A DNA stretch of 64,000 bases, from positions 744,001-808,000 of the forward strand of contig JARGXX010000075.1 in the NCBI GenBank assembly GCA_030374765.1, given 5' to 3'. The position numbers and the translations under genes were made by a program. Shown piece after piece: positions 2,935-49,018 of the stretch. Under the pieces are notes generated by a model. The model worked only from the letters and a program-made list of their open reading frames with translations, made no database searches and was not told where the DNA came from. This DNA is from Agarophyton chilense. Lineage: Eukaryota > Rhodophyta > Florideophyceae > Gracilariales > Gracilariaceae. Position 1 is the stretch's first letter; each line of letters starts with the position of its first letter.

Positions 2935-3127
2935 CTGTTGGCTGTTGACCCTGTGCTGTCACTGAAAAACAAAAGTGCAGGGGAGCATGGGCTGTTTTGG
3001 AGGGTGCCCCTGGAAAAGCGCATATGCGTGTCAGTCGGATCTCAACGTGAACTCGGGCTGTGATTGGCTACTGCAAATGTGCACATGCAATGTGGTGTGT
3101 ACAAGTGGTATGGCACTATTGGGTTTG
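2935..3127 (+). repeat. Cop2-b 5' LTR, first part (U3)
   Basis: Starts TGTTGGCTGTTGACC, the same start as the LTRs at 15434 and 18315. It is cut at 3127 by Cop1-b and resumes at 9683-9688. This portion holds the U3 palindrome and CCAAT-type module described separately. Confidence 0.93.
3001..3110 (+). promoter_or_regulatory. Cop2 U3 module shared with Cop1
   Basis: A stretch of about 110 bp holds, in order: the palindrome CGCATATGCG (3019-3028), CTCAACGTGAAC, GATTGGCTACTGCAAATG (an inverted CCAAT box plus an octamer-like word), CATGCAATGTGGT and ACAAGTGGT. The same words in the same order and near-identical spacing occur in Cop1 U3 (3206-3330) and in Cop2b LTRs, while much of the rest of the LTRs differs. 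Inferred to be upstream promoter elements; no direct evidence of use. Confidence 0.6.
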
Positions 3128-3800
3128 TGTTGAGGTTTGGTCGACTGTGCCCCCAAGCCCTTTGGAGTGTTGGAAATAGTGGAAAACAAAAAGTGGATTT
3201 AAGCATGGGCACTTTTGGGCACCCTCCGCGGAAAAACGCATATGCGCCTCATCTCAATCTCAACGTGAAACGGCCATCTGATTGGCTACTGCAAATGCCC
3301 TCATGCAACGTGGTATGGACAAGTGGTCTGGTTCTAATGGGGCGTGTTGGGGCTTCGGCCCAAGTGGAGCGATTTGATTGGACGAGAGCGCTGAATGAGC
3401 ACGGGCTATGCAGTTGGAGAGAATGTGCGAATGTGGGCTGGATACGGGGTTTGGCCGTAACAGCCGAATCTGGGCTGCGCGGGGTGGTTGGCACTGGCGC
3501 ACCACTTTGGATGATTTTTTGAGTTTTTATTTGATATGCTTCATGTTTGAAATTGTTTTGGCGCGCAACTCCTCGTCGCACAGTGGCAAGGTGTGAGACG
3601 TGGGTGACCCGCCGACGGTCAGCACCGGCGGCGGAAGTGCGTGCGAGGTAGATATAGTTTTCAATGACGGTCGCCAACGATCGAAGTAAATTGTCAAGGC
3701 TGACTACCTTCCTTTGTTTCTCTTCTTTTATTTTTCTCTTCTTCTCGTCTTTTCCCCCTCTTCTTCCTTTTCCTTTACCTAACCTGCGCTCACGTTGTGA
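3128..3800 (+). repeat. Cop1-b 5' LTR
   Basis: 673 bp. It is followed immediately by the primer-binding site at 3801. The 3' half holds a long pyrimidine-rich tract (about 3708-3780). Only a weak TATA-like word (gatatag, near 3651) is visible. Confidence 0.95.
3206..3330 (+). promoter_or_regulatory. Cop1 U3 module with palindrome and inverted CCAAT box
   Basis: Palindrome CGCATATGCG at 3237-3246, then CTCAACGTGAAAC, GATTGGCTACTGCAAATG and CATGCAACGTGGT, then ACAAGTGGT. This is the same order as in Cop2 U3 (3001-3110). It is repeated in every Cop1 LTR in the window. Inferred promoter module retained between families; function not shown. Confidence 0.6.
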
Positions 3801-3814
3801 GGTTATGGGCCCAG
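3801..3814 (+). other. Cop1-b primer-binding site (initiator tRNA-Met half)
   Basis: GGTTATGGGCCCAG directly follows the LTR. Its reverse complement, CTGGGCCCATAACC, is the anticodon arm of eukaryotic initiator tRNA-Met. This is the site type used by Drosophila copia, where a 5' half of the tRNA primes reverse transcription. Confidence 0.88.
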
Positions 3815-3858
3815 AGCGTCGACTCTTCGCAGACGTCACGCTCTACTAACATTTATTT

Positions 3859-3948
3859 GGATTCAAGAAGATTCCCTACTGCGACAGGTGCGCGATCTAC
3901 GACTAACGCTCATCTGGATTCAAGAAGTTATTTTGTTTTGCGACAGGC
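3859..3948 (+). repeat. 57-bp-spaced imperfect duplication in the Cop1 leader
   Basis: GGATTCAAGAAG followed by GCGACAGG occurs at 3859-3888 and again at 3916-3947, a period of 57 bp. The same pair is present in the Cop1-c leader, so it belongs to the family and not to this copy. Confidence 0.65.
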
Positions 3949-4115
3949 GTGTACCCTGCGGACTTCCTCCTTGGTGGCGAAAACATATCGCGTTTGTTAG
4001 TACCCCCTTGGCACGAGACCGGGAAGTCTGCCAAATCCTGCTCTCCGTCCGTAGAGTACGGAGGTCGATGAATTGGGCTTGGAAGTGTAGGAGCAACCGT
4101 ACTACACCGCACGAC

Positions 4116-4375
4116 CGCGCTACTTTCCCGCAAGAGGCTAGCTTGGGTCAACTGGGGGAAGTGTATCTTGACGACACCCCTCCTTGGGACGCCTCGTAGG
4201 GACTAAAAGCGCCGGACTCTGAAGTGCGCAGAGTTCGGTAGGTAATCAAAGCGTACCTCACCTGGAGAGAGTAACCAGGGTCCAGGGGATCATCCTTTAG
4301 GGTAGCGGAGGTAGTTTCTCCCGCCAGTGCGCCCGCCTACCTCGAGCAAGTCTCGGTAGGTTCAATCAAGAAGTT
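4116..4375 (+). ncRNA. Structured leader RNA shared by Cop1 and Cop2
   Basis: About 250 nt of the gag leader align with 11030-11277 of Cop2-b although the rest of the leaders differ. Shared anchors are CGCGCTA, GGGTCAACT, the word GCCTCGTA, GCGCC, CCAGGGG, CTTTAGGG and GCCAGTGCGCCCGC. Between them lie at least four hairpins whose arms differ in sequence between the families but still pair. In Cop1 the arms are GGGG/CCCC, ACTCTG/CAGAGT, AGGTA/TACCT and CCTGG/CCAGG. This suggests a selected RNA structure such as a packaging, dimerisation or translation element. The role is inferred. Confidence 0.55.
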
Positions 4376-4713
4376 TCAACCCGAAGTCGAGAAGTTTGTC
4401 TGTTCCGGGTACGCCTTCTGCCACTGCCCGTGAGTATACTCCAAGCGTGGGAGCACCCGAGCTCCGCTTGTGATCGCGTACGAGACGCGTCTCGGTGAGC
4501 GTTGCAGGCTACGTCAAAAGTCTCCGCTGTCGTCCTCGCTGTCGAACGTTTGAGTTGGGATACTCCGTTCGGGCAAGCTCGGCCACGAATTCATCACTGC
4601 TCGTGGCCCTTTTCTTAAACTTCCCAAGGCATTGAGTCCCTCACTCTGCTTCCCTCTACTAATTATTTTCGTTTGGTTCCGTTCTATCTGCTTCGTGGAT
4701 AACAGACTGAAAT
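4376..4713 (+). other. Cop1-b leader, rest up to the gag start
   Basis: This is untranslated leader between the structured RNA and the ATG at 4714, where the long frame begins. No other gene is visible. It includes pyrimidine-rich sequence shortly before the start codon. It is nearly identical in Cop1-c. Confidence 0.7.
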
Positions 4714-7700
4714 ATGTCGGACACGGAAATGGAATCCGAAAGTACTACCGGGATGAAAATCCCTCGTTTTCATGGAAGGCGTGGTGATGATTATGCCCTA
4801 TGGCGCCATCGCCTTCGTGCTGCATGCCGTGTTAAAGGTGTGTGGAACGTTGTGGAATCCGATTCTGGATATTCAGCAACTACTGAAGCAACATCGGATA
4901 CCGCTATTGATAGCGCTCGAGTTGTCGCCAAGCGCGAGAAGGCATGTGGAATCATAATATGCGCCTTGGGTGATGCGCCACTTCGTGTGGTCATGGATGT
5001 CGACGACGACCCGGCGCGCATGCTCGCATTGCTTGATGCACGGTATGCGTCCAATCGTACTGTATCCAGAATTGCTGTGCAGACTCAACTATTCCGTATG
5101 GGATACAATGGTCAGAATATGTCAGGCTATGTGGACCAGTACACGGCGTTATTTGCTCAGTTAGAGCGCATGGGGAAGGATGCGGCAGTACCGGAGTCGC
5201 ACAAAGCTCCCATGTTACTTGCTTCTATTGATCCCAATTGCACACTGGAGTCTACTGCTGCAGCTCTTCGAACCAAGGATATCGCTGAGCTTACATGGGA
5301 CTACGTGGCCACGACCCTCATAGATGAATACAACGCGAAACAGGTGTCTGCAAGGCCGTCTGGACGTAGTTCACGTCGCAAGAAGAAGGGCAGGAAAAAA
5401 TCTGGTCGACATTCTGAATCGACTAATCGTACCCGCAGTAGTGCAAACAACGAAGATGAGGAGTCTGATGGTCACTCCGACATTGAGTCTACTGCTCGTG
5501 CACTTGCTGCCGCCTTGAGATCGTCATCATTTGATCGTTCTGGATCGAGCAATGGACATCATTGCGACTTCTGTAATCGCGATGGACACACACAAGATCG
5601 TTGCTTTATGAATCCGGACAACCCGGACAACCACTTGCCGCAGAGTATCCTCGATAAACTGTCGCCACAACCCAAGCGAATGGGTGGCAGTAGTGGTAGA
5701 AGCGCCTCGAGCAAGTCTTCTGGAAAGTCTGGAAAAATCGAAATTGCTGGTGCAACTGTGGAAAGGACCACTATAGTTCCGCCGAATGACCTGAGTACCT
5801 ACGCAGACAGCGGTGCGACAGTACATTGCTTCCATTCTGTTTGTGCGTTCGTGCCCGGTTCACTTGAACCTTGCGACGAAAGGACAGTGATGCTTGCCGA
5901 TAACACATCTGTTGTATCTAAACAACGCGGAGAGGTGATCATTCCTTTGGACAATGCGAACATACGTCTGAGTGATGCCCTACTGACCCCCGCTCTGGGA
6001 TACAACTTGGTTTCAACCGGGTGTTTGGCCGACAAAGGTATTGAGTCGCTCTTCGGTCGTCATAGTGTACGTTTGACGCTAGAGTCAAATGGTTTTGAGG
6101 TGGGCATTGGTGATCGTGACAAGGTATCTCGCATGTACACACTGCCTCAACCTTTAGGGCATGCTGGTGTGGAACTTGCGCTTTCGACTAAGTCTACGGA
6201 GACTCAACTGTGGCACCGACGACTGGCTCACATCAACCAACGTGATCTGCAACATGTACACAAGTACGCAGATGGAGTGCCGCACTTGTGTGACATGGAG
6301 GAGGTATGCCGAGCATGTCGACTTGGCAAAGCTCATAAGCTTCCGTTCCCAGGTCACTTTGAACATGCATCCGCGGTTGGTGACATTGTGCACTCGGATA
6401 TTGTAGGTCCTCTGGAAAAGTCTTTTCCGGAAAAGTTTCAATATGCATGTACATTCCTCGATGATCACTCACGGTATGTGTTCCTAGGTCTTGTGATCCA
6501 TCGCAGTGCTCTTAGTGATGTGTTTGTGGGTATTGCGGCAAAGTTTAAGCAGCTTGGAGGAGTGCATATCAAAAGTTTGCACTCGGACGGTGCAGAAGAA
6601 TATATTGCCCTGCAAGAGAACTTGGCAGCAGAACATGGCCTCACTTCTTTCTCTGCTCCATACACCCCCGAACACAACGCTATAGCTGAGCGCATCAATC
6701 GTACCATGGTGGAAGCTGCTCGATCGTTGCTGATCCAAGCCGATCTACCAGAATGTTTGTGGCCATATGCGCTGAAACATGTTATCTTTGTGCGTAATCG
6801 AGTGCAACATTCTACTGTTAACAACAGTCCCTACTTTCTGGTAACTGGAAATAAACCTTTGTTGAAGCACGTGCGTGTGTTTGGATGCACTGCATTCGTG
6901 CTAAGGACTCCGCGTGGACCCAAGTTCGAGTCTCGTGCACTTGAGGGAGTGTACTTGGAGACTCTTGAGCATGGTGTGTACAAGGTACTCGTCGTTGATA
7001 ATGACGGTACTCCGCGTATTATTGAGTCACGACATGTTACTTTTGATGAATCCAAGTTCCCTGGCGCATCATCTCTTGCCAACTACATGGATGATGAAAG
7101 TGCGTCAGATGCTGACTATAGCTCTGATATGGGATTATGTGATAGCATTGATGACGAATCGGATACCTTCTCCGTCGATAATGTTGAGGAGGAGGTGGTT
7201 CATGACGGATCCTCGCACCTGATTCCAGCACTCAGGCAGTCGGAGTCAGACTCCGGCAGCAATGAAGACGATGCACAGGATTCCGAAAGTGATGACGAAA
7301 GTGCTGCTGATGACCTTGATACATCTGCTAACGCTGATACGGAACCACGCTACCCGCGGCGCACGCGCCGTCAACCTCTAAGGTGGTTCATGGCAGGGTC
7401 TGCTCACTGTACATCGCAAGTCAAAGTCACTACTAGTGATGAGCCCTCACTCAAGGAGGCAATGTCCGCCAGTGCGGAGGAGCGTACCATGTGGCAAGCA
7501 GCCGTCGATGAAGAGTTTTCATCATTGGAGTCGAAGCAAACTTGGAAACCTGATGACTCTCCTGCTTCACAACCACTACCAACTCACGTCATACTGAAGG
7601 TAAAGCGCAATGCTGATGGGTCAGTTGAACGTTTTAAGGCTCGTGTTGTAGCCGGTGGAAACCACCAAACATATGGTCAGGACTACATGGAGACTTATGC

Positions 7701-9015
7701 ACCAGTTGTTTCGTTCTCTTTGGTTCGCATATTCTTGTATCTGACGTTATGCTTGCGCATGTATGTGGTACAGGTGGATGTGAAGACTGCGTTTCTCAAT
7801 GGCGAACTTGAGGAAGATGTGTGGATCATGTCACCTCGAGGTATACCTGGCGTGACTTCACAATGCTTCAAATTGCTCAAGGCTATCTATGGACTGAAGC
7901 AAGCGCACTTGGCATGGCACAACAAACTATGCGAGGATATGAAAAGCATATGTTTTGAAGAGTTACCGAGTGCACCTTGCGTGTTTCGCCGACAAAACGA
8001 GAGCAATGAGGATGCGTTCGTGCTAGTTTATGTGGATGACTTGCTAATATTCACAACTTCTGCCATGGAACGTGATGCGATTTTGGAGGAACTTAAGTCG
8101 TTTTACGAGCTGCGTGTGGCTGACGAAGTGAACTTGTACCTCGGCGTTGAATTCAAATGGACTTTAGATTCAGATGGTCGACCTGTGTCGCTGTATCTTG
8201 GTCAGTCACTGTACACGGAAAGCGTGTTGCGCCGTTTCGGGTTTCAGCGATCCAAGCCGGCATGCACCCCTATGGTAGAATCTTTTTTTACCGGGTGGAC
8301 ATCTGAGAAAGACAAATCCATCCAGGATACTCAGCTGTACCAGCAGATCATTGGATCGCTTTTGTATTTGGCACTGAGAACTCGGTTGGATATATTAGCA
8401 CCCGTCCTAATCTTGGCTCGTTTTCAGAAATCGCCCACGGCCTACTGTCACAAGGCAGCAAAGCGGGTTCTTCGTTACCTTCGCGGTACAACTAAACATG
8501 GTGTGCACTATCACTCTGGCATGGTGAAACTGGAGGCGTACGTTGACTCTGACTACGCTGCGGACACGCGTGATCGCAAGTCAATGTCTGGTTTCTTAGT
8601 GAAGCTTGGCAAAGCGACATGTATGTGGGGCGCAAGAAAACAGGCTTCGGTGGCGTTGTCTACCGGCGAGGCCGAGTATTATGCTTTGACGCTTGCGTGT
8701 CAGGAGGTCATTTGGTTGAAGCGTGTGCTTAAGGAGATTGGATGGAAAGTGCAAGGTGCTGTGCCCATTCGTTCGGACAACCAGTGCGCCATTGACTGGG
8801 CAACTGGTGAACGCTGTCCGTCGGGTCGCGCTAAGCACATTGACGTTAAGTTGCACTTCGTTCGGGAACTAGTCAAGGATAGTCACATCAATGTGACGTA
8901 CGTTCCAAGTGAAGACAATGATGCGGACTTCTTAACCAAACCACTTGGCCCAGGTCTTCACAACAATAACGCGGACCGTGTTGGACTTGGCCGACCAGTC
9001 GAGGAGGAGTGTTGA
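4714..9015 (+). CDS. Cop1-b gag-pol polyprotein (Ty1/copia)
   Basis: A single open frame of 1433 codons. Domain order is copia-type: gag (about residues 1-280, with a basic stretch near 225), a CCHC zinc knuckle of form CX2CX4HX4C near 284, protease with YADSGATVHCF near 363, a GAG-pre-integrase segment LWHRRLAHINQ near 499, integrase with the D, D, E region between about 560 and 650 (HSDIVGP, LHSDGAEEY, PEHNAIAER), RT with YVDDLLIF near 1106, and RNase H with YVDSDYAAD near 1276. An acidic, serine-rich linker lies between integrase and RT. Gag and pol are in one frame, as in most copia elements. The stop codon overlaps the start of the 3' LTR. It looks whole and is the best-preserved copy in the window. 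Confidence 0.95.
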   Translation: MSDTEMESESTTGMKIPRFHGRRGDDYALWRHRLRAACRVKGVWNVVESDSGYSATTEATSDTAIDSARVVAKREKACGIIICALGDAPLRVVMDVDDDPARMLALLDARYASNRTVSRIAVQTQLFRMGYNGQNMSGYVDQYTALFAQLERMGKDAAVPESHKAPMLLASIDPNCTLESTAAALRTKDIAELTWDYVATTLIDEYNAKQVSARPSGRSSRRKKKGRKKSGRHSESTNRTRSSANNEDEESDGHSDIESTARALAAALRSSSFDRSGSSNGHHCDFCNRDGHTQDRCFMNPDNPDNHLPQSILDKLSPQPKRMGGSSGRSASSKSSGKSGKIEIAGATVERTTIVPPNDLSTYADSGATVHCFHSVCAFVPGSLEPCDERTVMLADNTSVVSKQRGEVIIPLDNANIRLSDALLTPALGYNLVSTGCLADKGIESLFGRHSVRLTLESNGFEVGIGDRDKVSRMYTLPQPLGHAGVELALSTKSTETQLWHRRLAHINQRDLQHVHKYADGVPHLCDMEEVCRACRLGKAHKLPFPGHFEHASAVGDIVHSDIVGPLEKSFPEKFQYACTFLDDHSRYVFLGLVIHRSALSDVFVGIAAKFKQLGGVHIKSLHSDGAEEYIALQENLAAEHGLTSFSAPYTPEHNAIAERINRTMVEAARSLLIQADLPECLWPYALKHVIFVRNRVQHSTVNNSPYFLVTGNKPLLKHVRVFGCTAFVLRTPRGPKFESRALEGVYLETLEHGVYKVLVVDNDGTPRIIESRHVTFDESKFPGASSLANYMDDESASDADYSSDMGLCDSIDDESDTFSVDNVEEEVVHDGSSHLIPALRQSESDSGSNEDDAQDSESDDESAADDLDTSANADTEPRYPRRTRRQPLRWFMAGSAHCTSQVKVTTSDEPSLKEAMSASAEERTMWQAAVDEEFSSLESKQTWKPDDSPASQPLPTHVILKVKRNADGSVERFKARVVAGGNHQTYGQDYMETYAPVVSFSLVRIFLYLTLCLRMYVVQVDVKTAFLNGELEEDVWIMSPRGIPGVTSQCFKLLKAIYGLKQAHLAWHNKLCEDMKSICFEELPSAPCVFRRQNESNEDAFVLVYVDDLLIFTTSAMERDAILEELKSFYELRVADEVNLYLGVEFKWTLDSDGRPVSLYLGQSLYTESVLRRFGFQRSKPACTPMVESFFTGWTSEKDKSIQDTQLYQQIIGSLLYLALRTRLDILAPVLILARFQKSPTAYCHKAAKRVLRYLRGTTKHGVHYHSGMVKLEAYVDSDYAADTRDRKSMSGFLVKLGKATCMWGARKQASVALSTGEAEYYALTLACQEVIWLKRVLKEIGWKVQGAVPIRSDNQCAIDWATGERCPSGRAKHIDVKLHFVRELVKDSHINVTYVPSEDNDADFLTKPLGPGLHNNNADRVGLGRPVEEEC
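9001..9009 (+). other. Cop1-b polypurine tract
   Basis: The purine run gaggaggag lies immediately before the 3' LTR, where plus-strand priming is expected. Confidence 0.75.
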
Positions 9016-9682
9016 GGTTTGGTCGACTGTGCCCCCAAGCCCTTTGGAGTGTTGGAAATAGTGGAAAACAAAAAGTGGATTTAAGCATGGGCACTTTTGG
9101 GCACCCTCCGCGGAAAAACGCATATGCGCCTCATCTCAATCTCAACGTGAAACGGCCATCTGATTGGCTACTGCAAATGCCCTCATGCAACGTGGTATGG
9201 ACAAGTGGTCTGGTTCTAATGGGGCGTGTTGGGGCTTCGGCCCAAGTGGAGCGATTTGATTGGACGAGAGCGCTGAATGAGCACGGGCTATGCAGTTGGA
9301 GAGAATGTGCGAATGTGGGCTGGATACGGGGTTTGGCCGTAACAGCCGAATCTGGGCTGCGCGGGGTGGTTGGCACTGGCGCACCACTTTGGATGATTTT
9401 TTGAGTTTTTATTTGATATGCTTCATGTTTGAAATTGTTTTGGCGCGCAACTCCTCGTCGCACAGTGGCAAGGTGTGAGACGTGGGTGACCCGCCGACGG
9501 TCAGCACCGGCGGCGGAAGTGCGTGCGAGGTAGATATAGTTTTCAATGACGGTCGCCAACGATCGAAGTAAATTGTCAAGGCTGACTACCTTCCTTTGTT
9601 TCTCTTCTTTTATTTTTCTCTTCTTCTCGTCTTTTCCCCCTCTTCTTCCTTTTCCTTTACCTAACCTGCGCTCACGTTGTGA
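9010..9682 (+). repeat. Cop1-b 3' LTR
   Basis: 673 bp, matching the 5' LTR at every position I compared. It is followed by the second TSD copy gtttg (9683-9687) and the rest of the Cop2-b LTR. Confidence 0.95.
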
Positions 9683-10183
9683 GTTTGTCTGTGGTACACG
9701 TGTGTACGTGGTCTACTTGTACTACTGTGCACGCTGTTCAATATGTCCAGCTGGTGTACTATGAACACATCTCACAAGGTGTAACGAATGTACTTGGAGA
9801 AGAGACGTGACATGTGTATTACAGGAGACTTGGTGTACTGTGCTGGAACGTGAATGTGTATGGAGGCGGATTGCAAGTAGTGTGTGCTGGCATATTGAAT
9901 TTGTGCACACGTCAGTGTAATTATGGGCTGTGCACTGTATATTGCCTTGTTGTGCGCTGCAATGAACATTGACTAGGGTTAATGTCATGCTTGAATATGA
10001 TTGGTAGTATTGAGTGTCCCTGCTTTGTAGTCTAGGGTTTACTTTGAGTTGGAGTCTAGACAGCTGACGTTTTGAAGTAGTATATAAGTGAAAGTTTGAG
10101 CGCCTCCAAGTAAATCCAAGCCAGAGCTGGCGAACTTCCTTTTCATTCCCTCAACCATTCCTTCAGCATTTCCCTATCCAACA
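9683..10183 (+). repeat. Cop2-b 5' LTR, second part (U3 end, R, U5)
   Basis: This is the continuation of the LTR that starts at 2935. The first five bases duplicate 3123-3127. It ends TATCCAACA, directly followed by the primer-binding site. It contains a good TATA box. Confidence 0.93.
10081..10088 (+). promoter_or_regulatory. Cop2-b TATA box
   Basis: TATATAAG lies about 100 bp before the LTR end, so transcription would be expected to start near 10110 inside the LTR. The same word stands at the same place in the LTRs at 15434, 18315 and 29492. Confidence 0.7.
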
Positions 10184-10198
10184 GGTTACGGGCCCAGC
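10184..10198 (+). other. Cop2-b primer-binding site (initiator tRNA-Met half)
   Basis: GGTTACGGGCCCAGC follows the LTR without a gap. It is the Cop1/copia type site with one difference from the Cop2-c version (GGTTATGGGCCCAGC). Confidence 0.85.
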
Positions 10199-11029
10199 CC
10201 CGCTGACCTCTGCCGTCTAGTTCGTCTCTCGCCGCTCTCCCGCACCGCCGTTCATCCGTTTCGCTGTTCTATTCTCTTCGTTTCCGCCGTAGTAGCCGTT
10301 TCGTCGGGTGTGTGACCATATCGTGGGTTGGTGTTGGTATTTTCTTTCGGTCTTGCGTTCCTCCCTGAGGGCGTTGTGGTGGTAGTTTTTGGACGTTTTT
10401 ATCGTGATTGTGGTTGGGTGCTCGTTGTTGCCCGTGTTTGTCGATCGCTATCCGTTTCGTTTGGTCTCCCTCTGTTTCGTTGATTTGTGGATCCCTGCGT
10501 CGTGTTTGCGGGTTCTGATCTGAGAGGTTGAGGACCGTGTTTGTTGAAGTCTGGGCCTGGAGTTCTTGGCTCAGCGTTCGTGTGTGTTTGTGTGTTTGGT
10601 CTGCTTCTTTGCCTGTGCGACGAGCGGTTGATCCGAGGTACTTTGGGTGATTCCTTGTACTCGGGGACGTTAGCCTGGCGGCTTGAACCAAAGCAGGTGT
10701 ACTGTGCAAGCGGGTTCCCCACTGGTCCTTTTAGGGCGGATAACAGTGACGGTCGAAAGATCTGGTTGAACTTTGCTGGTGCATTTGTGGACGGGGTGCC
10801 GTGGCGCACTGCATTTGGCTGGTTGTTTGACTTTGTGTGTGAGCCCGACCTTTGTGGTTGGGCACTTGGACTGTTGTGAACAGCATCCATAAGGAGCTTT
10901 TGATCCGCAGTACGCGGGAAGGCGACGTTTCGAAGGCTGACCTCCTTTTCAGGATCAGGCCGCGTGCGATCTTCATTGATTGCTCGTTAGAAGCGTATCT
11001 CGGTGTTGAAGTAGCTTCGGTTTCGAGGT
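10199..11029 (+). other. Cop2-b leader, 5' part
   Basis: About 830 bp between the primer site and the shared RNA module. It is GT- and CT-rich. It contains a short array of the 8-bp unit gtgtgttt (about 10580-10597; two units here, three in Cop2-c near 19399). Short open frames on both strands show no recognisable motif and differ between copies. I see no gene. Confidence 0.65.
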
Positions 11030-11277
11030 CGCGCTAGTTCTTGAAAGAGGCCAGAGAGGGTCAACTTGGTGAAGGCATATCTTCGGTCATTAACCATCCT
11101 CTGGAAGCCTCGTAAGGAGCAACGCGCCTTCTCCTTTTGACGTGGGAGGAGGTAGAGTGCAGAAAACCGTTATCTACCCAGAAGAGCTCTGGGGGCCAGG
11201 GGTCCGACCTTTAGGGACGCGAGTATAGGAAGCCCTGCCAGTGCGCCCGCAGACTATTGTCTGTTCAATCTTGAAGA
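11030..11277 (+). ncRNA. Structured leader RNA, Cop2-b version
   Basis: Counterpart of 4116-4375. Anchors GCGCTAG, GGGTCAACT, GCCTCGTA, GCGCC, CCAGGGG, CTTTAGGG and GCCAGTGCGCCCGC appear in the same order. The arms that pair here are TGGT/ACCA, CTCC/GGAG, GGTAGA/TCTACC and CCAGA/TCTGG, replacing different but also complementary arms in Cop1. It lies about 110 nt before the likely gag ATG. Inferred cis-acting RNA. Confidence 0.55.
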
Positions 11278-11280
11278 ATT

Positions 11281-11331
11281 ATTTGTTGTTTGTTGTTTTT
11301 ACTTTGTTGTTGTTGTCTGTTGTTGTTGTTC
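11281..11331 (+). repeat. TTG-rich low-complexity tract
   Basis: Runs of ttg and tttg just before gag. The same tract is found in Cop2-c near 20107-20157. Confidence 0.7.
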
Positions 11332-11387
11332 ACTCGTCTGTTGCTGTCAAGTCATCTCTCTCGGCCTCTTGTGACACTTTGCACAAC

Positions 11388-14300
11388 ATGGATTCGTTCA
11401 GTGGGGTGAAAATCGAAAAGCTGGTTGAGGATAACTTCCACGTATGGAAGCAGAAGATTGAGCTGCTGCTTGCACTCAAGGACCTCGACGGCCACCTCGA
11501 CTCTGTTAGACCCACTGACGAAGATGAGCTGTCGACTTGGAAAAAGAAAGATGCCAAGGCCAGAGCTATTATTGGTCTCACACTCAGTGATGAGCATTTA
11601 GATCATGTGCGCGACGCCGACAACGCTGCCGATATGTGGAAAGCCATTTGCGATGTGTTCCAACGCAAGACTCTGCTCAACAAAATCAACGCCCGACGGT
11701 CCTTCTACTCTGCCAAGATGCGTGATGATGAGAAAATGCTACAGTTCATCAACCGTGTACGTCATCTGGCATCAGACCTGAAGTGTATGGACGTTGTTGT
11801 TGAGGAGGAGGACATCGCTATGGCCATCCTATGCGGACTTCCGGAAAGATTCGAGCACCTCATCGTCGCAATTGATACTACGATTGGCGATCGTCAACTC
11901 ACTCTAGAGTTTGTGAAGAGTCGTCTGCTGCAAGAAGAGCAGCGAATGAACGATCGTGCCAAGGAGGAGCCTGGTGGAAGTGAGGCAGCTTTGGTTGGCA
12001 GGCAGTCGCGATGGAAGAACATCGAGTGTCATTATTGTCATAAGAAGGGTCATATCCAGAGGAACTGTTTCAAGAAGCAACGTGATGGGGCTAACATGAA
12101 TCAGGTCGGTGCTGCTCACCCAACTGTCAATACTGAGCTCAGCGATGAGCGAGGTACGGGTGGCAACGACTCTGATTTTGTATGTCTCATTGCTACTGGC
12201 TCTGATAAAGCCACGAACAGTGACTGGATTGTTGACTCTGGTGCTACTGCCCACATGACTTTTGACGAATCCATGTTCCAAACATATGACAGTAAGGTGT
12301 CTTCTGGCGTTAGCATCGGTAATGATTCCAAACTAGAGTCTCTTGGTCACGGTAGTGTGGAGCTTGATCTGATTGTGGAAGGGTCCAAACGAAAGTGCCA
12401 GCTGAAGCAAGTTGTTCATGTACCGAATTTAAGGTACCATTTGCTTTCTGTATCGGCGATTTGTGATCTGGGGTGCAAAGTAGTGTTTGAAAAAGAGAAG
12501 GTATGTGTATACAAGGGGTCAAAAGTGGTTGCCTTGGGTCGCCGCGTCAAAGGCCTATACTACCTTTGCACTGCTGCACACCAGTGTACAGATGTAAACA
12601 GCGCACTTGTGTCGGACTTGTCACTATGGCATGCTCGAATGGCTCATGTGATTGTGGATGGTATCAAGCATATGGCTCGAAACAAGGTTGTGTCAGGGCT
12701 CACTGTAGACATTGCGCAGGATTCAGATGTGTGTGGCTCATGTGTAGTAGGAAAAGCAACCCGTGCTCCGACTCCCAAGCAAGGGGGGGAACGAGCAAAA
12801 CACGTACTGGAACTTGTTCACTCCGATGTGTCAGGTCCAGTAAGTGTGAAATCCTTGGGAGGCTCGCACTACTTCGTCACATTCATCGATGATCACAGTC
12901 GTTTCTGCTTCTTCTACATGCTCAAAACTAAGGATGAGGTGTTCCAGATGTTCCTAAGGTGGCTCAAGTTTGTTCAAAACCAAACTGGCAGACAAGTGAA
13001 AACCATCACCGCACGTGAGAGTGTGCTCAAAGCATTGCGCACTGACAACGGTGGTGAATATCTGTCACATCGTTTTACCAAAGAACTTGAACGTCACGGT
13101 ATTGAGCATCAGCGAACTGTGCCTTACAATCCTCAGCAGAATGGACTTGCCGAACGGTTCAACCGCACACTCATGGACTTGGTCAGATCGATGTTATGTC
13201 ACAAGAAATTGCCAAAGCACTTTTGGGCTGAGGCACTGAATGTTGCAGTGTATGTGCGCAACCGTGTGACTTGCAAAGCTCTTCCAAGTAGTGTTACACC
13301 ATATGAACTGTGGCATGGTCCGAAGCCTGATGTGAGCAACCTGCGTGTGTTTGGGAGCCGATGCTGGTACAAGGTTGTGGATCATAAGCTGAAGAAGCTA
13401 GAGGAGCGTGGTGTGGAAGCTATCTTTATTGGGTACACCCCAGGGTCTCACGGACACAAGTTGTGGGACTCTGAAAAGAAAAAGGTGATTGTGTCAAGAG
13501 ATGTACGGTTTGATGAGTTTTCGGGCTCAGACAACCAGTTTAGCCATGAGGAAGAGGACTACGCAGACATTGAATTTAGTAATATGTCTAGTCCACATGA
13601 TACCTCTACATCTGACACATCTAGTGGACCCAGCGATGATGACCCTTCTGCTCCTTTGCCTGACTCTGATGATGCTTCTGACAGCTCTGTTGATGATTCC
13701 GCAGCTGATACATCAGTTGAGCCTGTAGTGCATGAGACACAACCTGTTCGTAGGTCCACGCGTGAACGTAGGAAGCCGAGCTCATGGTGGCGTGCAACTG
13801 CTCTACTCACTGCCAGTGATGACACCCCGTCGTCATATGATGATGCTGTGTCACGTCCTGATTCTGAAGCATGGAAGAAGGCAATGAAGAGTGAGTACCA
13901 GTCACTAATTAACCATAACACATGGGACTTAGTGCCAAGGCCAGCAGACAGAAACGTGATTTCGTCCAAGTGGGTGTATGTGCAGAAGTATGAAGCAGCA
14001 CCATCTGGTGAACTAACTATCAGGTACAAGGCTCGTATGGTTGCTAGAGGATTCCTGCAGATCGAGGGTGTTGACTTTTCTGAAACATATGCACCTGTTG
14101 TTAAGTTTACCTCGATCAGGATGATTCTGTCTGTGACTGCTGTACGAGACTTTCATTTGCACCAGATGGATGTGAAAACAGCTTTTCTGAACGGTGACCT
14201 TGAGGAGACAGTGTACATGGAGCAGCCAACAGGTTTTGTTCAGCAAGGTAACGAGGATCTGGTGTGTCGTTTGAAGAAAGCCATCTATGGGCTACGACAG

Positions 14301-15413
14301 GCACCCAGACAGTGGCATGCAAAGATATACTCGTTCCTTGTTGAGGAGGTGCAGTTGACGCCAAATGACGCAGATGAGTGTGTGTACAGCGGAAAGATAC
14401 TGGGATTTGTTGTTTTGATTGCTCTATACGTTGATGACTTGCTTATTGCAAGTCCGAGCATGAAGACAATGGATCGTGTAAAGGCAGAGCTGTCGTCTCG
14501 GTTCCACATGAAAGACCTCTATCAAGCTCGCATGGTACTCGGATTCGAGATCCACCGTGACAGAGTTAAGCGAGAGTTGTATCAGACTCAGTCTGCGTAC
14601 ACACAAAAGGGCTTGGAACGTTTTGGCATGCACCAGTCCAAACCAGTTGACACTCCAATGGAAGTTGGCATGGACCTGTCTGCGATTCAGGATGTACTCA
14701 GGGAGGTGCCGTACCGTCAGGCAATTGGCTGTCTCATGTACTTGTCTGTAGGAACTCGTCCAGACATCTCATACGCGGTGTCCAAACTTGCCAAGTATGT
14801 TGAGAAACCTGGAGAGATTCACTGGAAGGCAGTCAAACGTGTGATTCGCTATCTCAACGGTACTTGTACATTTGGTCTCACCTACAGCTTAAACACCGAT
14901 TTGGCACTTCACGGCTACGTGGACTCTGACTGGGCAGGCGATGTTGCAAACCGCAAGTCTACCAGTGGATACTTGTTCATGATGGCTGGAGGTCCTGTGT
15001 CATGATGTTCACGTCAGCAAGAAGTGGTTGCACTGTCTAGTGCTGAAGCTGAGTATGTGAGTCTGTGCAGTGGTTCCAAAGAGGCCATCTGGCTTACGCG
15101 TTTGTGGAATGGCATCGGCATAGTCATTGGAGTAGAAGTGGACGATTCGGTAAAGTTGCTTGTTGAACCAACGCCTGTATATGTTGACAACCAAGGGTGC
15201 ATTGACCTTGCCCGAAATGGCGTTGTCAACAAGCGTACCAAGCATATCGACATTCGTTTTCACTTTACTCGAGAAGCTCTACGTGACAAGTCGATTGTGT
15301 TGTTCTACTGCCCTACCGATTGCATGACTGCCGATATGCTCAACAAACCACTTTGCCGTGTGAAGCACGAGAGGTTCCGTGAAGACAGTGGCGTCCGACA
15401 CCTAGACCTTTGA
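11388..15413 (+). pseudogene. Cop2-b gag-pol polyprotein
   Basis: Copia-type polyprotein. The frame is open from 11241, but the first ATG followed by conserved gag (MDSFSGVKIEKL) is at 11388. Order: gag of the UBN2 type; zinc knuckle CHYCHKKGHIQRNC near 12028; protease WIVDSGATAHM near 12226; integrase with HSDVSGP near 12820, LRTDNGGEY near 13036 and PQQNGLAERFNRT near 13130; an acidic Ser/Asp linker; RT with VDVKTAFLNGDLEE near 14166 and YVDDLLIA near 14427; RNase H with YVDSDWAGD near 14920 up to the C-terminal HIDIRFHF region. Nearly whole, with about one break. It is homologous to Cop1 only at the level of domains. Confidence 0.92.
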
Positions 15414-15433: not shown

Positions 15434-16119
15434 TGTTGGCTGTTGACCCTGTGCTGTCACTGAAAAACAAAAGTGCAGGGGAGCATGTGCTGTTTTGGAG
15501 GGTGCCTCTGAAAAGCGCATATGCGTGTCAGTCGGATCTCAACGTGAACTCGGGCTGTGATTGGCTACTGCAAATGTGCACATGCAATGTGGTGTGTACA
15601 AGTGGTATGGCACTATTCGGTTTGTCTGTGGTACACGTGTGTACGTGGTCTACTTGTACTACTGTGCACGCTGTTCAATATATCCAGCTGGTGTACTATG
15701 AACACATCTCACAAGGTGTAACGAATGTACTTGGAGAAGAGACGTGACATGTGTATTACAGGAGACTTGGTGTACTGTGCTGGAACGTGAATGTGTATGG
15801 AGGCGGATTGCAAGTAGTTTGTGCTGGCATATTGAATTTGTGCACACGTCAGTGTAATTATGGGCTGTGCACTGTATATTGCCTTGTTGTGCGCTGCAAT
15901 GAACATTGACTAGGGTTAATGTCATGCTTGAATATGATTGGTAGTATTGAGAGTCCCTACTTTGTAGTCTAGGGTTTACTTTGGGTTGGAGTCTAGACAG
16001 CTGACGTTTTGAAGTAGTATATAAGTGAAAGTTTGAGCGCCTCCAAGTAAATCCAAGCCAGAGCTGGCGAACTTTCCTTTCATCCCTCAACCTTTCCTTC
16101 TGGATTTTCCTATCCAACA
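15434..16119 (+). repeat. Cop2-b 3' LTR
   Basis: 686 bp, TGTTGGCTG to TATCCAACA. It is followed by the TSD accac (16120-16124) and the continuation of Cop1-a. It differs from the 5' LTR at roughly 2-3% of sites by eye. Confidence 0.93.
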
Positions 16120-18314: not shown

Positions 18315-19002
18315 TGTTGGCTGTTGACCCTGTGCTGTCACTGAAAACCAAAAGTGCAGGGGAGCATGGGCTGTTTTGGAGGGTGCCTCTGGAAAAGCAC
18401 ATATGCGTGTCAGTCGGATCTCAACGTGAACTTGGGCTGTGATTGGCTACTGCAAATGTGCACATGCAATGCGGTGTGTCCAAGTGGTACGGTACTATTG
18501 GGTTTGTCTGTGGTACACGTGTGTACGTGGTCTACTTGTACTACTGTGCACGCTGTTCAACATGTCCAGCTGGTGTACTATGAACACATCTCACAAGGTG
18601 TAACGAATGTACTTGGAGAAGAGACGTGACATGTGTATTACAGGAGACTTGGTGTACTGTGCTGGAACGGGAATGTGCATGGAGGCGGATTGCAAGTCAT
18701 GTGTGCTGGCATATTGAATTTGTGCACACGTCAGTGTACTTATGGGCTGTGCACTGTATATTGTCTTGTTGTGCGCTGCAATGAACATTGACTAGGGTTA
18801 ATGTCATGCTTGAATATGATTGGTAGTATTGAGTGTCCCTGCTTTGTAGTCTAAGGTTTACTTTGGGTTGGAGTCTAGAAAGCTGACGTTTTGAAGTAGT
18901 ATATAAGTGAAAGTTTGAGCGCCTCCAAGTAAATCCAAGCCAGAGCTGGCGAACTTCCTTTTCATTCCCTCAACCTTTCCTTCAGCATTTCCCTACCCAA
19001 CA
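18315..19002 (+). repeat. Cop2-c 5' LTR
   Basis: 688 bp, TGTTGGCTG to ACCCAACA, with the U3 module and TATATAAG near 18900. It shows that Cop2 LTRs without Cop1-b are continuous across the Cop1-b insertion point. Confidence 0.93.
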
Positions 19003-19017
19003 GGTTATGGGCCCAGC
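19003..19017 (+). other. Cop2-c primer-binding site
   Basis: GGTTATGGGCCCAGC is an exact reverse complement of GCTGGGCCCATAACC, the anticodon arm of vertebrate and fly initiator tRNA-Met. It is the cleanest copy of the site in the window. Confidence 0.88.
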
Positions 19018-20213
19018 CCCGCTGACCTCTGCCGTCTAGTTCGTCTCTCGCCGCTCTCCCGCACCGCCGTTCACCCGTTTCGCTGTTCTATTCTCTTCGT
19101 TTCCGCTGTAGTAGCCGTTTCGTCGGGTGTGTGACCGTATCGTGGGTTGGTGTTGGTATTTTCTTTCGGTCTTGCGTTCCTCCCTGAGGGCGTTGTGGTG
19201 GTAGTGGTTGGACGTTTTTATCGTGATTGTGGTTGGGTGCTCGTTGTTGCCCGTGTTTGTCGATCGCTATCCGTTTCGTTTGGTCTCCCTCTCTTTCGTT
19301 GTTTTGTGGATCCCTGCGTCGTGTTTGCGGGTTCTGATCTGAGAGGTTGAGGACCGTGTTTGTTGAAGTCTGGGCCTGGAGTTCTTGGCTCAGCGTTCGT
19401 GTGTGTTTGTGTGTTTGTGTGTTTGGTCTGCTTCTTTGCCTGTGCGACGAGCGGTTGATCCGAGGTACTTTGGGTGATTCCTTGTACTCGGGGACGTTAG
19501 CCTGGCGGCTTGAACCAAAGCAGGTGTACTGTCAAGCGGGTTCCCCACTGGTCCTTTTAGGGCGGATAACAGTGACGGTCGAAAGATCTGGTTGAACTTT
19601 GCTGGTGCATTTGTGGACGGGGTGCCGTGGCGCACTGCATTTGGCTGGTTGTTTGACTTTGTGTGTGAGCCCGACCTTTGTGGTTGGGCACTTGGACTGT
19701 TGTGAACAGCATCCATAAGGAGCTTTTGATCCGCAGTACGCTGGAAGGCGACGTTTCGAAGGCTGACCTCCTTTTCAGGATCAGGCCGCGTGCGATCTTC
19801 ATTGATTGCTCGTTAGAAGCGTATCTCGGTGTTGAAGTAGCTTCGGTTTCGAGGTCGCGCTAGTTCTTGAAAGAGGCCAGAGAGGGTCAACTTGGTGAAG
19901 GCATATCTTCGGTCATTAACCATCCTCTGGAAGCCTCGTAAGGAGCAACGCGCCTTCTCCTTTTGACGTGGGAGGAGGTAGACTGCAGAAAACCGTTATC
20001 TACCCAGAAGAGCTCTGGGGGCCAGGGGTCCGACCTTTAGGGACGTGGGTATAGGAAGCCCTGCCAGTGCGCCCGCAGACTATTGTCTGTTCAATCTTGA
20101 AGAATTATTTGTTGTTTGTTGTTTTTACTTTGTTGTTGTTCTCTGTTGTTGTTGTTCACTTGTCTGTTGCTGTCAAGCCATCTCTCTCGGCCTCTTGTGA
20201 CACTTTGCACAAC
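19018..20213 (+). ncRNA. Cop2-c leader with structured RNA module at about 19856-20103
   Basis: Near-identical to the Cop2-b leader, including the anchor words and hairpins of the shared module and the TTG-rich tract. The gtgtgttt array has one unit more than in Cop2-b. No gene is visible. Confidence 0.6.
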
Positions 20214-22936: not shown

Positions 22937-23609
22937 TGTTGAGGTTTGGTCGACTGTTCCCCCAAGCCCTTTGGAGTGTTGGAAATAGTGGAAAACAAAA
23001 AGTGGATTTAAGCATGGGCACTTTTGGGCACCCTCCGCGGAAAAACGCATATGCGCCTCATCTCAATCTCAACGTGAAACGGCCATCTGATTGGCTACTG
23101 CAAATGCCCTCATGCAACGTGGTATGGACAAGTGGTCTGGTTCTAATGGAGCGTGTTGGGGCTTCGGCCTAAGTGGAGCGATTTGATTGGACGAGAGCGC
23201 TGAATGAGCACGGGCTATGCAGTTGGAGAGAATGTGCGAATGTGGGCTGGATACGGGGTTTGGCCGTTACAGCCGAATCTGGGCTGCGCGGGGTGGTTGG
23301 CACTGGCGCACCACTTTGGATGATTTTTTGAGTTTTTATTTGATATGCTTCATGTTTGAAATTGTTTTGGCGCGCAACTCCTCGTCGCACAGTGGCAAGG
23401 TGTGAGACGTGGGTGACCCGCCGACGGTCAGCACCCGCGGCGGAACTGCGTGCGAGGTAGATATAGTTTTCAATGACGGTCGCCAACGATCGAAGAAAAT
23501 TGTCAAGGCTGACTACCTTCCTTTGTTTCTCTTCTTTTAATTTTCTCTTCTTCTCGTCTTTTCCCCCTCTTCTTCCTTTTCCTTTACATAACCTGCGCTC
23601 ACGTTGTGA
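22937..23609 (+). repeat. Cop1-c 5' LTR
   Basis: 673 bp, TGTTGAGG to CGTTGTGA. It carries more private differences than the other Cop1 LTRs in the window. Confidence 0.94.
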
Positions 23610-23623
23610 GGTTATGGGCCCAG
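23610..23623 (+). other. Cop1-c primer-binding site
   Basis: GGTTATGGGCCCAG directly after the LTR, identical to the Cop1-b site. Confidence 0.87.
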
Positions 23624-23924
23624 AGCGTCGACTCTTCGCAGACGTCACGCTCTACTAACTTTTATTTGGATTTAAGAAGATTCCCTACTGCGACAGGTGC
23701 GCGATCTACGACTAACAATCATCTGGATTCAAGAAGTTATTTTGTGTTGCGACAGGCGTGTACCCTGCAGACTTCCTCCTTGGTGGCGAAAACATATCGC
23801 GTTTGTTAGTACCCCCTTGGCACGAGACCGGGAAGTCTGCCAAATCCTGCTCTCCGTCCGTAGAGTACGGAGGTCGATGAATTGGGCTTGGAAGTGTGGG
23901 AGCAACCCTACTACACCGCACGAC

Positions 23925-24184
23925 CGCGCTACTTTCCCGCAAGAGGCTAACTTGGGTCAACTGGGGGAAGTGTATCTTGACGACACCCCTCCTTGGGACG
24001 CCTCGTAGTGACTAAAAGCGCCGGACTCTGAAGTGCGCAGAGTTCGGTAGGTAATCAAAGCGTACCTCATCTGGAGAGAGTAACCAGGGTCCAGGGGATC
24101 ATCCTTTAGGGTAGCGGAGGTAGTTTCTCCCGCCAGTGCGCCCGCCTAGCTCGAGCAAGTCTCGGTAGGTTCAATCAAGAAGTT
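23925..24184 (+). ncRNA. Structured leader RNA, Cop1-c version
   Basis: Same module as 4116-4375, with the anchor words and hairpin arms retained despite a handful of substitutions. The positions are those of Cop1-b shifted by 19809. The leader continues to the gag ATG at 24523 without other features. Confidence 0.55.
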
Positions 24185-24522
24185 TCAACCCGAAGTCGAG
24201 AAGTTTGTCTGTTCTGGGTACGCCTTCTGCCACTGCCCGTGAGTATACTCCAAGCGTGGGAGCACCCGAGCTCCGCTTGTGATCGCGTACGAGACGCGTC
24301 TCGGTGAGCGTTGCAGGCTACGTCAAAAGTCTCCGCTGTCGTCCTCGCTGTCGAACGTTTGAGTTGGGATACTCCGTTCGGGCAAGCTCGGCCACGAATT
24401 CATCACTGCTCGTGGCCCTTTTCTTAAACTTCCCAAGGCATTGAGTCCCTCACTCTGCTTCCCTCTACTAATTAATTTCGTTTGGTTCCGTTCTATCTGC
24501 TTCGTGGATAACAGACTGAAAT

Positions 24523-27500
24523 ATGTCGGACACGGAAATGGAATCCGAAAGTACTACCGGGATGAAAATCCCTCGTTTTCATGGAAGGCGTGGTGATGAT
24601 TATGCCCTATGGCGCCATCGCCTTCGTGCTGCATGCCGTGTTAAAGGTGTGTGGAACGTTGTGGAATCCGATTCTGGATATTCAGCAACTACTGTAGCAA
24701 CATCGGATACACCTATTGATAGCGCTCGAGTTGTCGCCAAGCGCGAGAAGGCATGTGGAATCATAATATGCGCCTTGGGTGATGCGCCACTTCGTGTGGT
24801 CATGGATGTCGACGACGACCCGGCGCGCATGCTCGCATTACTTGATGCACGGTATGCGTCCAATCGTACTGTATCCAGAATTGCTGTGCAGACTCAACTA
24901 TTCCGTATGGGATACAATGGTCAGAATATGTCAGGCTATGTGGACCAGTACACGGCGTTCTTTGCTCAGTTAGAGCGCATGGGGAAGGATGCGGCAGTAC
25001 CGGAGTCGCACAAAGCTCCCATGTTACTTGCTTCTATTGATCCCAATTGCACACTGGAGTCTACTGCTGCAGCTCTTCGAACCAAGGATATCGCTGAGCT
25101 TACATGGGACTACGTGGCCACGACCCTCATAGATGAATACAACGCGAAACAGGTGTCTGCAAGGCCGTCTGGACGTAGTTCACGTCGCAAGAAGAAGGGC
25201 AGGAAAAAATCTGGTCGACATTCTGAATCGACTAATCGTACCCGCAGTAGTGCAAACAACGAAGATGAGGAGTCTGATGGTCACTCCGACATTGAGTCTA
25301 CTGCTCGTGCACTTGCTGCCGCCTTGAGATCGTCATCATTTGATCGTTCTGGATCTAGCAATGGACATCATTTCGACTTCTGTGATCGCGATGGACACAC
25401 ACAAGATCGTTGCTTTATGAATCCGGACAACCCGGACAACCACTTGCCGCAGAGTATCCTCGATAAACTGTCGCCACAACCCAAGCGAATGGGTGGCAGT
25501 AGTGGTAGAAGCGCCTCGAGCAAGTCTTCTGGAAAGTCTGGCAAAATCGAAATTGCTGGTGCAACTGTGGAAAGGACCACTATAGTTCCGCCGAATGACC
25601 TGAGTACCTACGCAGACAGCGGTGCGACAGTACATTGCTTCCATTCTGTTTGTGCGTTCGTGCCCGGTTCACTTGAACCTTGCGACGAAAGGACAGTGAT
25701 GCTTGCCGATAACACATCTGTTGTATCTAAACAACGCGGAGAGGTGATCATTCCTTTGGACAATGCAAACATACGTCTGAGTGATGCCCTATTGACCCCC
25801 GCTCTGGGATACAACTTGGTTTCATCCGGGTGTTTGGCCGACAAAGGTATTGAGTCGCTCTTCGGTCGTCACAGTGTACGTTTGACGCTAGAGTCAAATG
25901 GTTTTGAGGTGAGCATTGGTGATCGTGACAAGGTATCTCTCATGTACACACTGCCTCAACCTTTAGGGCATGCTGGTGTGGAACTTTCGCTTTCGACTAA
26001 GTCTACGGAGACTCAACTGTGGCACCGACGACTGGCTCACATCAACCAACGTGATCTGCAACATGTACACAAGTACGCAGATGGAGTGCCGCACTTGTGT
26101 GACATGGAGGAGGTATGCCGAGCATGTCGACTTGGCAAGGCTCATAAGCTTCCGTTCCCAGGTCACTTTGAACATGCATCCGCGGTTGGTGACATTGTGC
26201 ACTCGGATATTGTAGGTCCTCTGGAAAAGTCTTTTCCGGAAAAGTTTCAATATGCATGCACATTCCTCGATGATCACTCACGGTATGTGTTCCTAGGTCT
26301 GGTGATCCATCGCAGTGCTCTTAGTGATGTGTTTGTGGGTATTGCGGCAAAGTTTAAGCAGCTTGGAGGAGTGCATATCAAAAGTTTGCACTCGGACGGT
26401 GCAGAAGAATATATTGCCCTGCAAGAGAACTTGGCAGCAGAACATGGCCTCACTTCTTTCTCTGCTCCATACACCCCCGAACACAACGCTATAGCTGAGC
26501 GCATCAATCGTACCATGGTGGAAGCTGCTCGATCGTTGCTGATCCAAGCCGATCTACCAAAATGTTTGTGGCCATATGCGCTGAAACATGTTATCTTTGT
26601 GCGTAATCGAGTGCAACATTCTACTGTTTACAACAGTCCGTACTTTCTGGTAACTGGAAATAAACCTTTGTTGAAGCACGTGCGTGTGTTTGGATGCACT
26701 GCATTCGTGCTAAGGACTCCGCGTGGACCCAAGTTCGAGTCTCGTGCACTTGAGGGAGTGTACTTGGAGACTCTTGAGCATGGTGTGTACAAGGTACTCG
26801 TCGTTGATAATGACGGTACTCCGCGTATTATTGAGTCACGACATGTTACTTTTGATGAATCCAAGTTCCCTGGCGCATCATCTCTTGCCAACTACATGGA
26901 TGATGAAAGTGCGTCAGATGCTGACTATAGCTCTGATATGGGATTATGTGATAGCATTGATGACGAATCGGATACCTTCTCCGTCGATAATGTTGAGGAG
27001 GAGGTGGTTCATGACGGATCCTCGCACCTGATTCCAGCACTCAGGCAGTCGGAGTCAGACTCCGGCAGCAATGAAGACGATGCACAGGATTCCGAAAGTG
27101 ATGACGAAAGTGCTGCTGATGACCTTGATACATCTGCCAACGCTGATACGGAACCACGCTACCCGCGGCGCACGCGCCGTCAACCTCTAAGGTGGTTCAT
27201 GGCAGGGTCTGCTCACTGTACATCGCAAGTCAAAGTCACTACTAGTGATGAGCCCTCACTCAAGGAGGCAATGTCCGCCAGTGCGGAGGAGCGTACCATG
27301 TGGCAAGCAGCCGTCGATGAAGAGTTTTCATCATTGGAGTCGAAGCAAACTTGGAAACCTGATGACTCTCCTGCTTCACAACCACTACCAACTCACGTCA
27401 TACTGAAGGTAAAGCGCAATGCTGATGGGTCAGTTGAACGTTTTAAGGCTCGTGTTGTAGCCGGTGGAAACCACCAAACATATGGTCAGGACTACATGGA

Positions 27501-47106: not shown

Positions 47107-47203
47107 TTTGCAAAACGCGTTGAGACCTTGGTATTAAAGCAGACAGTGAGCAGAGAAGACTTGTCAAATTGATAATGGAATACAAGATGACAAGAAGTGA
47201 GGA

Positions 47204-47775: not shown

Positions 47776-47838
47776 GGGGCTAGTTAGCAAGTGCAAGCGA
47801 GGAAGCAAATGTGGGAAGGAACGTACTGTTGCGGCGAA

Positions 47839-48097: not shown

Positions 48098-48100
48098 TAT

Positions 48101-48598: not shown

Positions 48599-48600
48599 TA

Positions 48601-48990: not shown

Positions 48991-49018
48991 GGGCGTCTAG
49001 ACACTAGCTCTTTGTTTA

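Follow-up and report, generated by a model that had tools for sequence, protein, structure and literature searches.

A leader block common to two copia-type retrotransposon families of Agarophyton chilense, which probably folds as RNA

The stretch of DNA analysed here (the window) covers 64 kb of the red alga Agarophyton chilense (contig JARGXX010000075.1, positions 744,001 to 808,000), has a GC content of 47%, and contains many copia elements in a nested arrangement. Two families, Cop1 and Cop2, are each present in two copies (a and b), and a third copia locus is referred to as Cop3. In Cop1 and Cop2, the leader between the primer-binding site (PBS) and the gag start codon carries a block of about 250 nt that is common to both families and probably folds as RNA.

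The copia elements and their common leader block

Both families are Ty1/copia long terminal repeat (LTR) retrotransposons: Pfam PF14223, PF00665, and PF07727 occur in this order, and the LTRs were located by self-BLAST. In protein alignments, the identity between Cop1 and Cop2 is 39% for the reverse transcriptase (RT) pieces, 29% for a piece of the integrase region, and about 20% for Gag over 198 residues. The zinc knuckle CX2CX4HX4C is present in the Gag of each family. Cop1a is inserted within the 5' LTR of Cop2a, the two pieces of which (2936-3128 and 9683-10183) match the 3' LTR at 15434-16119. Since its own LTRs are identical over 675 bases and its open reading frame (ORF) of 1433 amino acids is unbroken, Cop1a looks young.

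Aligned locally, the whole leaders (3802-4713 and 10184-11387) match best between 4116-4336 and 11030-11250, with a score of 55; 200 dinucleotide shuffles gave a mean of 22.9, a standard deviation of 2.2, and a maximum of 31. With a second scoring scheme, the score was 61 against a shuffle maximum of 25 (n = 200). This agrees with the first-pass annotation, which had placed a block of about 250 nt here: the six anchor words it listed occur in order in both blocks, and the second copies lie where it had placed them, with 4 (Cop1) and 3 (Cop2) substitutions (Table 1). Between 4116-4374 and 11030-11274 there are 178 identical, 50 mismatched, and 48 gapped columns, which corresponds to 78% identity in the ungapped columns. 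Despite the 48 gapped columns, the block keeps unchanged words of up to 14 nt.

The real score is reached by 55 of 200 shuffles in the upstream leader and by 72 of 200 in the leader downstream of the block up to the ATG. The first 900 nt of gag likewise show no nucleotide alignment (80/200); the RT region does align at this level (0/200), in line with the protein homology. The block is real and is sharply bounded within the leader. The flanks had been described as unaligned, and this holds for the neighbouring leader and gag; however, the LTRs of the two families share another segment of 160 nt near their 5' ends (72.8% over 162, E 4.6e-22), with 123 identical, 32 mismatched, and 10 gapped columns, or 79% of the ungapped columns. 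The leader block is, in other words, not the sole DNA common to Cop1 and Cop2.

A protein-coding block was rejected, as stops are present in all three forward frames and the longest open frames are of 31 and 44 codons. In Cop2a the gag frame continues without a stop ahead of its ATG and reaches into the 3' end of the block (11241-11388); a TGA lies two codons ahead of the gag ATG in Cop1, so that this open frame is not shared. A tRNA or tmRNA was also rejected (0 found in the window), and so was a known Rfam RNA. Rfam 15 (4227 covariance models) gave no match at the gathering score in the window and none up to E 5 at 3800-4700; at 10184-11400, STnc560 (14.7 bits) and, on the opposite strand, CrcZ (13.7 bits) were far below the cut-offs of 55 and 95. 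In the open-access literature, to the exclusion of subscription papers, no title or abstract start among the matches listed described such an RNA in copia leaders.

Table 1. Positions of the block, its predicted helices, and the surrounding elements in the window. Decimal values are mean pair probabilities.
Feature	Position	Strand	Remarks
Shared block, predicted structured RNA, Cop1 copy a	4116-4368	+	Between PBS and gag ATG; alignment, folds, covariance model
Shared block, predicted structured RNA, Cop2 copy a	11030-11271	+	Alignment, folds, covariance model
Block, Cop1 copy b	23925-24177	+	4 substitutions relative to copy a over 260 nt
Block, Cop2 copy b	19856-20097	+	3 substitutions relative to copy a over 248 nt
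5' arm, Cop1	4134-4195	+	Invariant GAGGC 4134-4138 / GCCTC 4191-4195; folds
5' arm flanking pair, Cop1	4126-4129 / 4199-4202	+	TCCC / GGGA
Invariant word inside 5' arm, Cop1	4145-4153	+	GGGTCAACT
5' arm, Cop2	11047-11111	+	GAGGC 11047-11051 / GCCTC 11107-11111; folds
5' arm flanking pair, Cop2	11037-11042 / 11115-11120	+	GTTCTT / AGGAGC
Strongest hairpin, Cop1	4211-4239	+	GCCGGACTCTG / CAGAGTTCGGT, 11 bp, 0.97; contains ACTCTG/CAGAGT
Counterpart of strongest hairpin, Cop2	11128-11151	+	CTTCTCCT / GGGAGGAG, 8 bp, 0.99
Hairpin AGGTA / TACCT, Cop1	4240-4258	+	0.73
Hairpin GTAGA / TCTAC, Cop2	11152-11177	+	0.96
Hairpin CCTGG / CCAGG, Cop1	4261-4279	+	0.45
Hairpin CCAGA / TCTGG, Cop2	11178-11192	+	0.97
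3' hairpin GCCTACC / GGTAGGT, Cop1	4335-4361	+	0.81; followed by shared TTCAATC
3' hairpin GCAGAC / GTCTGT, Cop2	11249-11264	+	0.97; followed by shared TTCAATC
Likely PBS, Cop1	3801-3814	+	GGTTATGGGCCCAG; also at 19003-19016 (Cop2b)
Sequence at PBS position, Cop2a	10184-10197		GGTTACGGG instead of GGTTATGGGCCCAG
Cop1a 5' LTR	3127-3801	+	675/675 identical to 9009-9683 (self-BLAST)
Cop1a 3' LTR	9009-9683	+	Self-BLAST
Cop1 gag-pol ORF	4714-9015	+	1433 amino acids, unbroken; gag, integrase, RVT_2 domains
Cop2 gag-pol reading frame	11388-15005	+	First ATG to first stop
Cop1b, second Cop1 copy	22937-29496
Cop2b, second Cop2 copy	starts 18315
Cop3, third copia locus	42749-48200	-	gag from 47106
LTR segment common to Cop1 and Cop2	3182-3341	+	Aligned with 18343-18502; no structural signal; control

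The likely PBS is presumably complementary to the anticodon arm of tRNA-iMet, which we take to be priming of the Ty5/copia type. The leader of Cop3 contains an AUG-free open frame of 189 codons (47204-47773, minus strand) just upstream of gag, with a C2H2-like Cys/His stretch at its end. This frame has no Pfam match and is possibly a leader protein with a non-AUG start. In addition, a further Cop2-like LTR (87%) and the start of a leader lie at 62974-64000 and run past the end of the window; any copy of the block there would be outside it.

Predicted fold and tests of conserved structure

The pair probabilities given here and in Table 1 are means over each helix from separate thermodynamic folds of Cop1 and Cop2; the helices listed for Cop2 are those of 3 bp or more with pairs above 0.1. 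The two folds agree in the 5' arm including GCGC/GCGC, the strongest hairpin, the next two hairpins, and the 3' hairpin. Four hairpins with differing arms had been proposed in the first-pass annotation. Three of them stand; in the fourth, GGGG/CCCC has low pair probabilities in Cop1 (0.10-0.22), and TGGT/ACCA is absent among the helices listed for Cop2. The folds also contain helices that had not been proposed: GAGGC/GCCTC (0.34 in Cop1 and 0.96 in Cop2), the flanking UCCC/GGGA in Cop1 (0.33) versus GUUCUU/AGGAGC in Cop2 (0.98), and the 3' hairpin, whose arms differ between the families ahead of the common UUCAAUC. The inner helix of the 5' arm uses the GGG of GGGUCAACU and is weak in Cop1. 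Alternative pairings are predicted for CGCGCU, namely with the 3' AGUGCG (0.49 in Cop1, unlisted in Cop2) versus the local GCGC/GCGC (0.91 in Cop2). In neither block is there a 10-nt palindrome; one 8-nt palindrome is present, in Cop2 only.

The differing arms were said to remain paired. In the counterpart of the strongest hairpin in Cop2, 5 of the 8 pairs are changed on both sides in the model alignment. By eye, AGGTA/TACCT of Cop1 and GTAGA/TCTAC of Cop2 have a common GUAG core in a better register. This means that part of the arm difference noted earlier is a register shift. Over the whole structure, 13 of 71 pairs show changes on both sides, in an alignment fitted to the structure; 54 of 500 shuffles reach this number.

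Only Cop2a and Cop2b went into the covariance model (R1), whose structure was the minimum free energy (MFE) fold of Cop2 itself (71 pairs). A search with R1 recovered Cop1a at full length with 83.5 bits (E 3.1e-26) and Cop1b end to end with 69.8 bits. The sequence-only model from the same alignment gave 54.0 and 47.8 bits, ending at positions 225 and 222 of 242, respectively. For Cop1a the structure thus adds 29.5 bits, a value from one pair of models. In the R1 alignment, 91.8% of 279 cells pair, as compared with 41.5-48.0% for slid structures; this alignment was fitted to the structure, which favours it.

The first-pass annotation had also called for a search of the host genome and of other copia leaders. 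In the viral and genome contigs searched here, no relative of the block was recovered. DNA patterns gave 0, 3, 1, and 3 loci in viral contigs, none of them alignable to the block (best local score 32), and 0 loci in genome contigs. RT protein scans of the viral contigs found no copia; an RT-profile scan of the genome contigs found 18 copia loci in bacterial assemblies. These are the contigs L005-L022, which encode copia reverse transcriptases in bacterial or metagenome-binned assemblies and are probably eukaryotic contamination. Neither the covariance model nor the sequence-only model matched the loci L001-L022, the 18 copia loci included, up to E 10 with default filters; L023-L025 were compared by alignment alone.

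Joint folding and alignment of the two blocks was carried out with a purpose-written, banded program and was compared with three nulls. In the first, columns were shuffled within classes; in the second, Cop1 was native and the substitutions of Cop2 were permuted; the third was the converse. Counts are given in this order. The score of the whole block with band 3 was 131.7 and was reached by 0, 4, and 4 of 300 nulls; with band 6 the counts were 0, 2, and 2 of 300. The counts were 2, 3, and 8 of 200 in a looser run made earlier and 1, 3, and 10 of 400 in a later run with other seeds. The middle hairpins alone (band 4) were reached by 0, 6, and 4 of 500. When the MFE structure of Cop1 was transferred to Cop2, the score was reached by 3, 5, and 8 of 1000 with three bands. 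As a negative control of like identity, the LTR segment showed no structural signal in the same joint-fold test (243, 299, and 131 of 400).

The signal of the whole block belongs to the transcribed strand. The antisense score was 108.3 versus 131.7 for the sense strand, a difference reached by 5, 6, and 8 of 400 nulls, and the antisense score itself was reached by 28, 123, and 200 of 400. The counts of pairs changed on both sides are mostly at the null level. They were reached by 152, 159, and 135 of 200 in the earlier looser run, by 6, 19, and 21 of 300 with band 3, by 40, 124, and 100 of 300 with band 6, and by 47 to 240 of 500 when the parts were taken separately. Differing arms that remain paired therefore carry less weight than the first-pass annotation gave them. 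Covariation between Cop1 and Cop2 is suggestive only. The block probably folds as RNA, as judged from these models, and is probably under selection. The proposal of a selected cis-acting RNA is partly supported, namely as regards a structured RNA of the transcribed strand common to the two families.

Candidate functions and history of the block

It seems possible, and we favour it tentatively, that the block is a multi-hairpin cis-acting domain of the genomic RNA, with packaging or dimerization as its most likely role. The block lies in the interval, from the primer-binding site to the gag start, in which retroviruses and Ty1 carry their packaging and dimerization signals. The grounds for this reading are the position between the PBS and gag, the multi-hairpin fold of the sense strand, and the zinc knuckle in both Gags; the AUG-poor leaders described below also fit a scanned, retrovirus-like leader. 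The domain would be carried by the genomic transcript of two copia-type families, would be selected on the transcribed strand, and would mark the genomic RNA for the particle via packaging and/or dimerization. Its partner would probably be the zinc knuckle kept by both Gags, or a host protein, because the remaining Gag is only about 20% identical.

Several results weigh against a packaging or dimerization domain. All structure tests rest on two independent sequences, Cop1 and Cop2. The MFE is not below that of shuffles (z of -0.05 and -1.40 for the two blocks), and the score of the Cop2 MFE structure transferred to Cop1 is not significant (362, 226, and 137 of 1000). For the 5' arm alone with band 4, the stricter nulls often reach the score (0, 63, and 101 of 500). 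The 3' part alone was reached by 3, 11, and 4 of 500 with band 4, and the less favourable counts with band 3 were 10, 24, and 19 of 400. Support for the 5' arm therefore comes from invariant pairs, and that for the 3' part is at a level of about 1-6%. Sense and antisense strands, furthermore, do not differ significantly in the 3' part alone (96, 100, and 77 of 400). The block is no more similar between the families than the LTR segment (178/228 versus 123/155 ungapped columns), and the Cop3 leader is without the block (best 6 bits over 45000-64000, filters off). The Gag divergence is awkward for a Gag-specific signal, as the RNA is much better conserved than Gag; this could mean a host partner.

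A role in translation control, in which an internal ribosome entry site (IRES), a shunt, or a scanning regulator would set gag translation by binding either the ribosome of the host or an initiation factor, is unlikely. The block does lie upstream of gag, no AUG occurs from the block start to the gag start in either family, and a conserved host partner would account for a shared RNA despite the diverged Gags. However, AUG is depleted upstream of the block too. In leaders counted after the PBS, with expectations from a first-order model, AUG was found 0 times versus 11.9 expected in Cop2a (10195-11387, plus strand), 0 versus 11.2 in Cop2b (19020-20213, plus), 1 versus 6.2 in Cop1a (3815-4713, plus), and 0 versus 5.5 in Cop3 (47107-48085, minus), whose leader lacks the block. 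Among the 64 triplets, none is more depleted than AUG in any of the four leaders examined; the PBS itself contains AUG in Cop1, Cop2b, and Cop3. With an IRES, upstream AUGs would be harmless, yet they are depleted, and there is no Rfam match to an IRES. The long leaders are likeliest scanned from the cap, in which case the block would not be needed for bypassing upstream AUGs; the cap-independent initiation that had been suggested earlier is disfavoured.

A history in which template switching exchanged sequence between the families, RNA structure was not selected, and the block and the LTR segment are the remnants, seems unlikely. The near-equal identity of the two, 78% and 79% of ungapped columns, speaks for it, and composite elements occur in this DNA. 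The 3' LTR of Cop3 is Cop2-like (88%; 87.9-88.9% identical to the Cop2 LTRs), its leader is without the block, and by eye the sequence ahead of its PBS does not resemble the end of that LTR. Cop3 thus looks composite, and this mismatch means that a leader and its LTR are sometimes inherited apart here. On the other side, the 48 gapped columns of the block spare words of up to 14 nt, its structure score is above the nulls while that of the LTR segment is not, and the structure is worth the extra bits obtained with R1.

How the block came to be shared is a separate question. It had been thought older than the split of the families or exchanged between them. Cop3 is nearer to Cop2 than Cop1 is (Gag of Cop3 and Cop2, 39% over 417), so that the presence of the block in Cop1 and Cop2 and not in the nearer Cop3 leans to exchange, or to loss in Cop3. 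As to a recent recombination with identical flanks, the leader flanks are not identical, but a second shared segment is present in the LTRs. Common descent with loss in relatives and exchange of a leader module are the two possible origins, and exchange is somewhat favoured.

An element for nuclear export or stability of the unspliced RNA, with a host factor as its binding partner, is improbable; it would fit with a partner common to elements with diverged Gags and with the sense-strand specificity of the whole block. Least likely is an element acting at the DNA level, such as the transcriptional enhancer reportedly present in the leader of Drosophila copia: proteins could bind the short invariant words that occur in order, but sequence plus structure exceeds sequence alone by 29.5 bits and it is the sense strand that carries the whole-block fold signal.

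Comparison with known elements

Among copia-class LTR retrotransposons, Ty1 also has a structured domain close to the 5' end of its genomic RNA. This domain includes a proposed packaging region (+230-580), the dimerization palindromes PAL1 and PAL2, and a long-range pseudoknot that binds Gag (PMC8396678). The likeness is one of position and of predicted structure. Unlike the Ty1 domain, the block is common to two divergent families, and it has no 10-nt palindrome and one of 8 nt in Cop2 only.

The BARE elements are also copia elements of one genome with common signals. BARE2 is described as unable to make Gag but retaining the dimerization and packaging signals, so that one element can use the particles of the other (PMC3735527). 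Cop1 and Cop2, in contrast, both carry gag, with Gags about 20% identical. In the Sireviruses, other copia-class non-coding motifs outlast divergence, and they are located at the polypurine tract, the LTR junctions, the integrase signal, and the TATA box; a search of the text gave no hits for stem-loop, hairpin, packaging, or RNA structure (PMC2829016). The Psi and dimerization-site (DIS) leader RNAs of retroviruses resemble the present case as AUG-poor, structured leaders between the PBS and gag, a likeness of class for which homology is not claimed; the block differs in having no Rfam match above the cut-off.

Maps of leader RNA signals exist for yeast Ty1 and for retroviruses. To our knowledge, little is known about those of most other copia elements. 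Packaged RNA outside BARE is described as fairly little known (PMC3735527). The block may represent a common RNA module that is kept or exchanged among the copia families of one host lineage despite Gags of about 20% identity, either bound by a conserved host factor or serving as a packaging tag for sharing particles, although this broader view is rather doubtful. The covariance model of the block can be used for finding it in other genomes. A folded leader RNA in families whose gag sequences do not align as nucleotides would offer a handle on the sorting of genomic RNA, on exchanged modules, or on a common host factor.

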